Assembly (NCBI GenBank): GCA_009760855.2
Contig: WPIO01000001.1
Coordinates: 8,616,501 to 8,680,500 of the forward strand
Direction: 5' to 3'
DNA from: Cristatella mucedo
Taxonomy: Eukaryota > Bryozoa > Phylactolaemata > Cristatellidae
Length of the DNA: 64,000 nucleotides
The position numbers were made by a program, and so were the translations under genes. Shown in pieces: positions 27,169 to 49,859 of this stretch; position 1 is the stretch's first letter; every line of letters starts with the position of its first letter. The notes under the pieces are model-generated. The model saw only the letters and a program-made list of their open reading frames with translations, was not told the origin of the DNA and searched no databases.

Positions 27169-27383
27169 TCAGTTTTGAGCTCGATAAGTCAGATATGCGA
27201 TAGATCCAAGAACCGCCAGCACTAGATTGCAAACATTAAGGTTAGCCAGAGACGCCGAATTGCAGTTGTCAAGCAGGCAGTGACAAATTATCTGGGTAAC
27301 GCTGCCGCTAGTCGATTGAACGCAAGTGTTTACAGTCAGCCCAGTCAATGAAATGCTTCCAGGGAGGGCACACGTCCGATGAA
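27169..27383 (-). CDS. three-finger gene B, exon 3 (terminal)
   Basis: An excellent acceptor ('gttttttcttttcag') precedes TTCATCGGACG. With the G from exon 2 it reads VHRTC, then NTC, IICHC and LLDNCN, the hydrophobic tail, and TGA at 27169-27171. Cysteine spacing matches exon 3 of gene A. Confidence 0.93.
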
Positions 27384-30300
27384 CTGAAAAGAAAAAACGC
27401 GTCGATACGCTTCAATATGCTTCGCAGATTTTGATGCAGATGTCGGTACGGGGCGTAGTAGTGACAGCAATGCTAGCGGTCTGGAATTAGGCGGCCAAGG
27501 AGTCACGCTAAGTCACGCAGCGAGCCGCTGGAGAGACAAGCTCATTTCGATTGTGCCTGCTTTGGACGACACTGCAATAATGAATTGTAGGCCTTTCAAA
27601 ATTAAATTGCGGATCCAAAATAATAATCCCTACTCGTAAGTGCGGCTGCGTGAAGGAAACATCGACCTATGACAGTCAAACGAGTCAGTTCGGAATTGTC
27701 CTAAAAATTGAGCCATTTCGCACGATTGCACCAGAAACAATGATCAGCGACCATACTTGAGCAGCGAGTGAATAAGTTCATGAAGTCAGTTCACAAAGCT
27801 GCTCGAGCTCTCAAGCATTCCTAGCGTAGGCGAATTCACTATTCGAGATGGTGACGGAGCTTTAGCTGAGCCTTGGAAAAGATTCGGATGACGAGCGCTT
27901 TTATCCCAGGCACCCGCGACTTGAAGCCCTGTTTGGCGCCCCACGTAATTCATAGGACCGACGTATCGACGCGGACCTCCAGCTTTATGCTACTAGCTCG
28001 GTGTCCCATGACGACTGAAGCCAGCGAAAGCAACGGGTGATCAATCGCTTACCGTTGCTCCAACAAAGGAGATTGGCATGGCCAGGATGTTACACAAATC
28101 TGCACGGAGAATGCAGCAGTTACTAAACTCCGGGTGTCCATTGCCCTGGGTCTTAGCCCAAGGTTAAGGTGCCGGAACATCACAACTTGGGTCGTGGGTT
28201 AGACTCCTGCAGTAAGTAGTCGATCCCTTATTGGCCACTGCAAGCGGTGGTGTAAGACACCAGACACTTCTGCCGCTACATACACGAGGCTATTCCATCA
28301 GCTAACCCTCGAGGCTGGTGAGGTAAGAAGATGGAAATTATCCTGTAGCCGACTCTGGGAAGCTATCACAAATTCTATTATTTATCGGGCACAGCACAGT
28401 TCCCCAGCAAATTTTGCCACCCCTCAAACAGATATGCTCGCCTACATTTGTGTTGGCGCAAGGTGCTACGAAGGTAAGGTAATTTCGTAGAACACGCCGG
28501 CGCACGTCGCTGAAATTTTTCTTCTTCTAATCACTCGTATCAACAACATTTTGGTAATCACTTCCCGGTAAAAAGACGAAAGACATCCCTATTCTACCTC
28601 ATCTGCTGTCTTGACTCGGCTATGCTTCCCATTTCCTCTTTGTTTCCTGAGATGAAGTTTTAAGCCTTTTAATTTGAAGCCTTTTAGCTACCGAATGCGT
28701 ACCGAAAGCCACCTAGGCACTATACAAAACTCTCCTGGGTAGCACCTATATAGTCTTTGAGGCTTTATTGAGTTACAGAAGTAGATACATTACATTCATA
28801 ATGCCTCTAAAAAGTTATCCAAACTCGCGGTGAAGAATTTTCATCTTTTAAGTTGACTTAAACCTTCATAGGTTCTATTGATCACTCATCCACGACAAAT
28901 AGCGTAACTCTTTTCTTTCCTGCAGAAAATGTAAAGCACATAGAAAAAGATTGAGTTCTCCGAGGGGGCTTTATCAAGTGTATTATTATTATTATTTCTT
29001 TTAATTGCATTAGGCTACTACTTTGGCACTTGCTTCTTGCAGACAAAACGTTGTGTTTAGCATGACCTGCATGTTTTCGTTAGGACCACATCAGCTAGAC
29101 AAAAAGCAGAGCAGATAGCTTTGCCAACTTCGAAAATGAAAAGCACTTCAAGTTTTTCGAAAGCGTCATGTCTTTCTGACAGTCGGGTTTCGCAGAACCC
29201 CAACAGGCGCTTCGATTGCACTTATCTCAACCATTGACCATGTGCAGTCGGTTGGAACATGCAGTCGATTGCTGCAGGTCGATAGAGTAACTGATGTACG
29301 CAGAGAATAAAACGAATTTTAATTGACACTCTCCTTTAAATAGTGCACTGAATTAAGGATCAGGTAGGTTGTATCATTCTCGCCTCCCGACATCGAGCGC
29401 TCTCACGTGCGTTCGAGTTCCCTGCATAATTCTTCCAAAAACCGAAGTTCTTGCGAGCATCGCATACGGAAACGATAGAGCTCAGACCTGTTTAAAGTTA
29501 TTCTGATTGTTATTTGACCGTAGCACGTAAGAAAGTACGTGCCTATGGATATCTAAACGCTTATCGCTTCGGGCTGCTGGGTCTCCCACGCCGGTGGCAG
29601 CCTTAGCTACGCCGGTGGCTAGTAACCTGCATGTTAGTAATGATCGCCAGCAGCTGTTACCGCTTCGTCGTCGTAGATCAAATGCATTGCTAGGTAGTAA
29701 TGCTGTTTCTAAGATTCGTGAACTATGCATTAACAAAAGAAAAGCACCCCAGAGCCGCCCCGGTGGCCAGAACCGCCAGCTCAGACGCCGCTCGTTGGGC
29801 GGGAACTGCCAGCTGAGTACCTGCCGTCGGGTATTCCTAGCATTGTCTCGATACGCCCAGCACGCTCCCCCACATGCGTCACTGTGAATCTCTTCAACTT
29901 AGTGGTCATTAGGCTTGTTATAACTACATCGGCCACACTTAACGCTTGCCTTTGGAATCCTCGCTTAATTTGCAATAAACCTTTGGTAATAAGCGACCTT
30001 ATTTCTGAAAATGGTATCGACCTACTCGCCCTAACTAAAACTTGGTTAAAATTGATAAACTGCCCGACAAATAAAGATGCAACCCCAACAGGTTTCTCAC
30101 TCTTTAACACCCTTAGATCAATAAAAACTGGATATGGAGTTGCTGTTATCGTGCGCTCGAAATTCTACTTCAAGCCATTTGGAATAGCCTCGAAGCCGTC
30201 TTTTGAATCGATTGTCTTGTCTAACCCTAACACAAGCTACCGCTCGCGGCGGTAGTGTATCACCCACCAAGTACCAAATCCTCCTTTATCTCTGATTTCT

Positions 30301-48600: not shown

Positions 48601-49859
48601 GCCTGTGGAAATAAAAAAAAGTATGACTTGGTTCGCCTACGGCACGGCTACCGTGCCATGGTATTGGTACTGCTTCAAATGGGGGCAAACGGTCTTTATT
48701 GGCTAACCTAATTTCCCAAGGCAAAGCATTCCAAAGGCTAAGTGGAAACCAAAATTCTTACCTGAAGTGTCTCGGTGGACAGATAGAACTGATTGCATAG
48801 CGCACTAGCTGGTTTTTCTCAGCGGCCCGTTAGGAGTAGCAGCAGTCTAAACACTGTCCAAACCGGACGTAAGACTATTATTGATACATAAATGGCCAGC
48901 AGAAAAGGCGATGAATACTTATAACCTCCCGCAACAGTGTTCAGAAGAAAAGTTGCTGCTCGGGCATGAGCCGCAATGCAGGGCTAGTATCAATGCCACG
49001 TATCAGGAGGCTGTATAGACAGGGATAGAAAGGGGTGAGATGATGACTTGGTTGAGGAGGGCGAGCGGGTGAGGAAAGTAAGCGCGAACAAGGAAGGCGC
49101 AGAAGGAGAAATGCGGGTAGGAAAGAGAAATGCAAAATTCGACCCCGGAAGCCAGGAAGAAGAACGGAGTGAGAAGGATGGAGGGCAAAGCTTAGATGAA
49201 GGAAGGAGAAGACAGATGAAGGGACGCGATGAATGGCGGGGGATGACGACGAACGGATGAGGGGAGTGAAAATCAACAGAGGATGAAAAAAAAAGATCAG
49301 TAAGGATGAGACAGTGGGACACAGGATACATGTCGCGAAACAGCGAGGGAGAGAGAGCGACAGTGAGAGAAACAGTGTTTGTGAGTGTGTTTGTGTGTGT
49401 ACAGTGTATTTTGTGTAAGTGTGCGTGTGTGTGTGCGTGCAGTGTGCTGTGTGTGTGTGTGTGCTCTCTGTGTGCGTGCGTGTGTGTGCGCAGTGTGTGT
49501 GTGTTGCGTGTGTGTGTGTGTGTGTGTGTGTGTTTGTATATGCATATATCTAATTCCATAAAGATATATGAGACAAAGAGAAGAGACAACGTAAGTAAAT
49601 CGAGAGACAGGCGCAGAGTGAGGAACGCAAGGAAAAAATAAACCAATAGTTAGCGAACAGGCTTAGCTTACTGATGACACTTCTAAAGCTTCTAGCACCT
49701 TCAGTGGCAGCAACCGATGTCGTACGCGAATGCGCAGCGCGACCTGTAGACGGCATAACATAGCATAACTGCCCAACTGACGAGCGTCGCAAGCAGCCAG
49801 TCGCGGCACCGACGAAAGTACGTACCGAAACTAGCAAGCCAATACAGCCAGCAGCGCAT
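45481..49859 (-). CDS. Ly6/uPAR (three-finger) domain protein A, three exons
   Basis: Joining 49859-49826, 46415-46236 and 45689-45481 gives 423 bases, i.e. 140 residues plus stop, with GT-AG phase-1 introns. The leader MRCWLYWLASF|VTVALGT precedes NCYNC. Ten cysteines follow in LU order: CYNC, ASC, INC, PGC, RGC, NSC, CHC and the terminal LCN. The C-terminus is hydrophobic (THLLAVSAFAVLLANLH) after a small-residue stretch (NGARPSVGS), typical of a GPI-attachment signal. By family it is an extracellular, membrane-anchored, disulphide-rich protein; its ligand is unknown. Alternative start: an in-frame ATG at 46437 directly upstream of exon 2 would give MRVCLVAVTVALGT, also a plausible leader, needing no exon 1. 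The phase and layout shared with gene B favour the spliced form. Confidence 0.86.
46236..46415 (-). CDS. three-finger gene A, exon 2
   Basis: The acceptor 'ttgcttggttgcag' precedes TCACTGTCGC and the donor is 'cacgg|gtacgt'. It is 180 bases, phase 1 at both ends, and encodes VTVALGTNCYNC through PGCIKITYS and a GDGD run. Confidence 0.92.
46416..48000. other. intron 1 of gene A, 3' part
   Basis: No exon is required here by the frames. It contains a 30-base direct repeat at about 46843-46872 and 47953-47982. Otherwise no element was recognised. Confidence 0.5.
48001..48350 (-). mobile_element. LINE-1 remnant, 3' region
   Basis: Forward strand: 'actgaatctcttcgcgggca' (stem) and then 'agtcagaggatgtcgtggtg' and 'agtgagttccacgctttgga', which align with the minus copy at 18190-18250 ('agtgagttccaggctttggg'). 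It lies in intron 1 of gene A. Confidence 0.75.
48351..49374. other. intron 1 of gene A, 5' part
   Basis: Unique sequence with a purine-rich tract at 49020-49290 on the plus strand. The open frames on both strands follow from this bias and show no domain. Confidence 0.45.
49375..49545 (+). repeat. imperfect GT-rich microsatellite
   Basis: A series of GT/TG runs broken by 'gcgtgc' and 'ctctct', ending in a pure run near 49510-49532. Confidence 0.93.
49826..49859 (-). CDS. three-finger gene A, exon 1 (signal peptide start)
   Basis: ATG at 49857-49859 gives MRCWLYWLASF and then G before the donor GTACGT. The G plus TC of exon 2 makes Val, extending a hydrophobic leader. Support comes from phase and hydrophobicity only; transcript data would decide. 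Confidence 0.65.

Follow-up and report, generated by a model that had tools for sequence, protein, structure and literature searches.

Evidence for a tandem, same-strand cluster of QVR-type LU-domain genes split into small exons in the bryozoan Cristatella mucedo

We analyzed a 64,000-nucleotide stretch of the genome of the bryozoan Cristatella mucedo (G000:C111:8616501-8680500, where C111 is contig WPIO01000001.1 of assembly GCA_009760855.2), hereafter the window, in which a preliminary description had proposed two genes of the Ly6/uPAR (LU) family, here called A and B. The window very probably represents the downstream end of a tandem cluster of single-domain LU genes of the QVR (Quiver) type, which lie on the same strand, would be spliced from three exons each and would give rise to surface-anchored products. 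The proposed family assignment of A and B was borne out by a curated protein profile, by the three-exon layout with phase-1 introns and by clustering with further genes of this kind. What the sequence itself shows is the exon structure, the profile membership, the array on one strand, one recently duplicated pair and two broken copies. Coordinates are relative to the window unless they carry a contig name.

The six minus-strand exons from which the two genes had been assembled were all readable across positions 27169-49859, and every junction was GT-AG and in phase 1. The exons are as follows:

49859-49826, minus strand: proposed leader exon of gene A, start of the signal peptide, 11 codons, phase-1 donor GTACGT
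46415-46236, minus strand: middle exon of gene A, 180 bases, first half of the LU domain with 5 cysteines
45689-45481, minus strand: last exon of gene A, 209 bases including the stop, second half of the LU domain with CHC...CN and a hydrophobic tail of the glycosylphosphatidylinositol (GPI) type
38221-38170, minus strand: leader exon of gene B, signal peptide, phase-1 donor GTAAGT
33600-33421, minus strand: middle exon of gene B, 180 bases, first half of the LU domain with one extra cysteine
27383-27169, minus strand: last exon of gene B, 215 bases including the stop, second half of the LU domain with CHC...CN and a hydrophobic tail

Spliced from these exons, gene A encodes a protein of 140 residues and gene B one of 148. 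The acceptors of both genes are mostly pyrimidine-rich, and the CHC...CN signature and hydrophobic tail that had been described were found in both last exons. In gene B, a second AG at 33591, 9 bases downstream, would shorten the middle exon to 171 bases. The gene B leader was the sole candidate at the strict setting of the leader scan between 33.6 and 45.5 kilobases (kb), and a looser scan added two candidates with poorer donors and lower hydropathy. The leader is the least secure exon of gene A and is discussed below.

When the joined proteins were compared with Pfam-A (24,736 models, matches counted up to E 10), each had a single match, the Quiver-family u-PAR/Ly-6-like domain (PF17064 QVR), whose curated cut-off is 27.3 bits. 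Gene A scored 37.4 bits (E 5.4e-9) and gene B 31.2 bits (E 4.7e-7), so that the profile search by which the LU assignment was to be checked supported it for both. Scanned alone, the half-domain exons of A and B, four in all, stayed below this cut-off; only the last exon of gene A gave a QVR match (18.0 bits), and the last exon of gene B had no Pfam match. A search of NCBIfam returned no match.

The number of possible exon joins in the window is very large (324,438 middle-plus-last joins could be opened), and the two genes might thus be chance assemblies of unrelated open stretches. In a control, every openable phase-1 join of a middle exon (120-260 bases) and a last exon, up to 20 kb and on both strands of the window, was scored against a profile built from five neighboring paralogues (D, E, G, H and I, listed below), with A and B excluded and HMMER filters on. 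The control was not blind to cysteines, because these paralogues had been found by their cysteine pattern. The exact gene A join ranked first among all joins (43.4 bits, E 6.9e-10), and each of the 3,932 joins reported overlapped an exon of A or B. The exact gene B join obtained 25.7 bits (E 2.4e-4), or 25.8 bits with the acceptor at 33591. If the Pfam E-values are roughly adjusted to a single model and to 324,438 joins, they come to ~7e-8 (A) and ~6e-6 (B). Chance assembly is opposed by the Pfam E-values, by the overlap of every reported join with A or B, and by five further genes of like layout next door on the same strand. It was rejected on the basis of the Pfam scores and the exhaustive join test, and we give it next to no likelihood.

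These neighbors came from the flanks, of which we read 60 kb on the left side of the window and 140 kb on the right side; the last 20 kb on the right was searched only around gene I and for the middle and leader exons of that gene. A scan of the flanks for more members had been suggested, and it revealed a minimum of five additional openable LU genes, besides two broken copies, at 74.8-192 kb. Together with A and B, which stand at its end, the same-strand run comprises at least seven openable genes as well as the two broken copies and covers ~165 kb. The additional members, all on the strand of A and B, are:

last exon at ~74.9 kb: copy C, with an in-frame stop ahead of the first conserved cysteine; a middle exon was looked for and not found
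leader 110889-110847, middle exon 108448-108275, last exon 107393-107188: gene D, QVR 36.1 bits
leader 126326-126284, middle exon 123414-123241, last exon 122056-121851: gene E, QVR 34.3 bits
middle exon at ~143.3-143.4 kb: copy F, frame broken; a last exon was looked for and not found
leader 160975-160936, middle exon 157611-157450, last exon 151408-151200: gene G, QVR 37.7 bits
middle exon 178607-178443, last exon 177517-177297, leader not fixed: gene H, QVR 30.0 bits without the leader
candidate leader 195769-195727, middle exon 192023-191841, last exon 190689-190478: gene I, QVR 44.5 bits

Thus, A and B are same-strand LU genes, as had been proposed for the tandem pair, but they are two of at least seven openable and two broken genes, and we rejected the view that they form an isolated pair since the flanks carry further LU genes. 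In the 60 kb to the left of gene B, several matches of the pattern scan, which covered both strands, were judged unconvincing by eye, as were one middle-like and one last-like candidate from a later minus-strand scan. A further weak half-domain QVR match was present at C111:9029674 on the opposite strand. The array may continue beyond the stretch that was read.

All seven joined models (A, B, D, E, G, H and I) exceeded the QVR cut-off. In each of them the intron-1 acceptor lies 7 or 8 codons ahead of the first cysteine and intron 2 splits the domain. The exon finder sought phase-1 junctions only, and therefore phase 1 in the neighbors is partly by construction; the QVR cut-off is independent of this choice. 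Ten cysteines were found in the domain of gene A and the five neighbors and eleven in that of gene B, and CN closes the domain in all seven, this motif having been part of the pattern by which the neighbors were found. The CN is followed by a tail of 26-31 residues with a hydrophobic stretch (best 12-residue mean hydropathy of 1.72-2.73 by a simple hydropathy measure). By the same measure the leaders are hydrophobic where found, that of gene A only weakly. Middle exons exactly 180 bases long had been put forward as a mark shared by A and B; across the seven models, however, their lengths are 162, 165, 174, 174, 180, 180 and 183 bases. This range makes the equal length in A and B a coincidence, and we rejected it as a family mark.

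Genes D and E show 83% domain identity (synonymous divergence dS 0.137, nonsynonymous divergence dN 0.084), and their leader coding sequences are identical (MSAAVLILMLTVFS). The similarity runs through introns and flanks in three blocks of 2,002, 1,941 and 1,336 bases at 85.7-92.3%, and a weaker similarity (~66-74%) extends to copy F. By these sequence comparisons D and E are a recent tandem duplicate. Domain identity of all other pairs is 22-36%, including 33% for A-B, 36% for A-D and 34% for A-I; the A-B value suggests a long divergence. In a tree of the seven sequences none of the four inner branches was supported and several branches were very long. A sister relationship of A and B was thus unsupported, with identities of A-D and A-I above that of A-B.

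We also searched the whole assembly (572 Mb, 688 contigs) exon by exon with the QVR profile, retaining rows up to E 10; the counts are lower bounds. The same search gave no match in 14 control genomes; rows near E 10 may be chance. At least 50 exon-level rows were obtained on 21 contigs, with groups, for example, on C44, C49, C67, C133, C144, C145, C178, C255, C659 and C111. Of these 50 rows, 17 were restricted to the first half of the domain and 24 to the second, and 9 spanned both or were otherwise placed. Because 41 of the 50 rows are thus confined to one half, with the break at model positions 40-62, a mid-domain intron looks usual in the QVR family of this genome. In addition, C67:228496-228921 (minus strand) carries both QVR halves in one 444-residue open frame (42.7 bits together), which by its reading frame is an LU gene whose mid-domain intron was lost or is read through. 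It had been suggested that annotation based on open reading frames would miss such genes. This holds for A and B, whose exons are singly below the cut-off, but not for every member, as one lone exon on C178 exceeds the cut-off by itself (31.6 bits). Such genes should come to light with gene prediction that models introns and uses RNA data.

Several observations weigh against the interpretation of the window as part of an LU cluster. In the genome-wide search, the last exons of A, B, C, G and I gave only weak rows on their own (E 0.127-1.01), and no row fell on D, E or H. For gene A the row was C111:8662068-8662208 (22.0 bits, E 0.148); for gene B it was C111:8643759-8644013 (20.5 bits, E 0.395), a match whose intron part contains stops. 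The general Ly6 profile PF00021 had no exon-level match in the genome, and the 14 control genomes were equally silent. A sequence search of the PDB found no LU relative for A or B; the one match for A and the three for B were at chance level and none was an LU protein. In the join control, the gene B join was outscored by wrong joins that used an exon of A (34.7, 32.4 and 26.3 bits). The domain of gene B carries, in its first half, an odd eleventh cysteine, and a charged residue lies close to the end of the protein. In gene H the hydrophobic stretch, at 1.72, is weak and is separated from the stop by 11 residues. Finally, the proposed leader of gene A (49859-49826) was absent from the output of all four hydrophobic-leader scans.

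This leader was located through the span given in the preliminary description rather than through the leader scans, and it is only weakly hydrophobic. Between 48.7 and 57.2 kb the loosest scan offered six further candidates, all of them weak, of which one (50802-50736) has a full-consensus donor. In addition, an in-frame ATG directly 5' of the middle exon (upstream of 46415) would place M-R-V-C-L-V-A-V-T-V-A-L-G-T ahead of the first cysteine, and this read-through N-terminus makes a good signal peptide as judged by eye. It is quite possible, though less likely than not, that gene A does without the exon at 49859-49826, either starting at this ATG in a two-exon form or having its true leader elsewhere. 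However, the acceptor of gene A sits where those of the paralogue models do relative to the first cysteine, and the in-phase join of the proposed leader to the middle exon yields a plausible signal peptide. We favor the acceptor at 46415 because the six other models have their intron 1 at the same position. The three-exon phase-1 layout was found by sequence in the seven models, with the leader of A insecure, that of H not fixed and that of I a candidate.

The weakness of the gene A leader, together with the two broken copies C and F nearby, the extra cysteine of gene B and the absence of AATAAA or ATTAAA within 1.5 kb of the gene A stop, raises the question of whether A, B or both are unexpressed relics, with readable exons that are no longer spliced into a working mRNA. 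We regard this as improbable, as both genes have retained splice consensus and open frames in their exons, and as their joined proteins exceed the QVR cut-off. A farther-reaching reading, which we consider very unlikely, is that this cluster of GPI-anchored three-finger proteins turns over rapidly and has expanded in the lineage, and that gene B, with its eleventh cysteine, now yields a disulfide-linked dimer or a form tethered to a partner, with a new role in binding.

The introns of gene B contain other features. A perfect (CA)245 tract occupies 36952-37441 in intron 1, and a chain of open frames is present in intron 2 (29531-31887, plus strand). A 302-residue frame of this chain, without a Pfam match, gives the impression of an endonuclease region of a non-LTR (long terminal repeat) retrotransposon.

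Further features of the window and its flanks are the following:

14673-15566, minus strand: open frame with C2H2 zf-met zinc fingers (62.1 bits)
15833-16993, minus strand: 386-residue frame without a Pfam match, adjoining the zinc-finger frame
18891-19412, minus strand: reverse transcriptase fragment (RVT_1, 62.5 bits)
38760-39115: two 178-base tandem copies, 89% alike, containing the GGTTCGAATCC box
59254-62631, plus strand: 1,125-residue open frame rich in Ala, Glu and Arg, coiled-coil-like by eye, no Pfam match
61920-62288: 63-base tandem repeat inside the 1,125-residue frame
about -27.0 to -26.8 kb in the left flank, minus strand: match to Pfam Ephrin_rec_like (29.7 bits)
100766-102496, minus strand: long open frame with the look of a mobile-element DNA polymerase by eye

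The zinc-finger frame and the adjoining 386-residue frame are perhaps exons of one ordinary zinc-finger gene, and the Ephrin_rec_like stretch perhaps belongs to an Eph receptor or another cysteine-rich receptor gene. The tandem copies at 38760-39115 we would tentatively assume to be a tRNA-derived short interspersed element; ARAGORN found no tRNA. A 116-residue slice of the frame at 100766-102496 gave nothing above the Pfam cut-offs.

How A and B may work follows the pattern of the LU family. For each gene, the removal of two phase-1 introns would join a signal-peptide exon to the two exons that encode the halves of the domain. The product would enter the secretory pathway and fold into a disulfide-bonded three-finger domain, for which the family pattern predicts the pairs 1-5, 2-3, 4-6, 7-8 and 9-10, and its hydrophobic C-terminal tail would be exchanged for a GPI anchor. 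The loops could then bind a partner on the cell surface, such as a receptor, an ion channel or a junction component. By analogy with known members, we infer the splicing, expression, fold, GPI anchoring and partner binding of A and B, and with them a cell-surface binding or accessory role; most likely, both are ordinary GPI-anchored LU proteins that bind partners through their loops. The cluster itself would have grown through tandem duplication and lost some copies. It is an ordinary cluster of a known family, larger than the preliminary description could see, and not a new kind. It leaves existing knowledge of the LU family unchanged. What it contributes is one more tandem array, including recent duplicates and broken copies, in a family already noted for its expansions and its new functions. 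It also illustrates how an exon-aware search can recover LU genes whose domain is divided between two short exons: the joined proteins of A and B pass the cut-off, and their single exons do not.

The cluster can be compared with several known systems. As described in a review of the family, LU genes have three exons with phase-1 introns, the second inside the domain at the tip of loop 2, and occur in small clusters; the domain has a ten-cysteine pattern with Asn after the last cysteine, and many members consist of a three-finger domain held by a GPI anchor, with partners bound by the loops and the central sheet (PMC6600238). The seven joined models resemble the Quiver/Sleepless protein of Drosophila, in which loop 2 is needed for channel and receptor interactions (PMC4735452), through their PF17064 match above the cut-off, and also in their single LU domain, hydrophobic tail and, where a leader was found, hydrophobic leader. 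Gene B differs from it by the eleventh cysteine, and the likeness shown is one of profile membership only, not of orthology or of action on potassium channels or nicotinic receptors. Vertebrate Ly6/uPAR clusters (e.g. human 8q24) are similar in having a signal exon and two half-domain exons, phase-1 introns and clustered genes (PMC6600238). They differ in that PF00021 stayed below its 24.8-bit cut-off here (13.1 bits for D, 16.3 for G and 10.1 for H, with no match listed for A, B, E and I). In Drosophila, 45 LU genes have been described, more than half of them with ten cysteines, and fly members serve septate junctions or act upon ion channels and receptors (PMC6600238). The GPI-anchored genes among them (boudin, coiled, crooked, crimpled and others) are like the genes of the present array in their single LU domain and tendency to cluster, and the hydrophobic tails of the array are a putative counterpart of their C-terminal GPI signal (PMC6600238).

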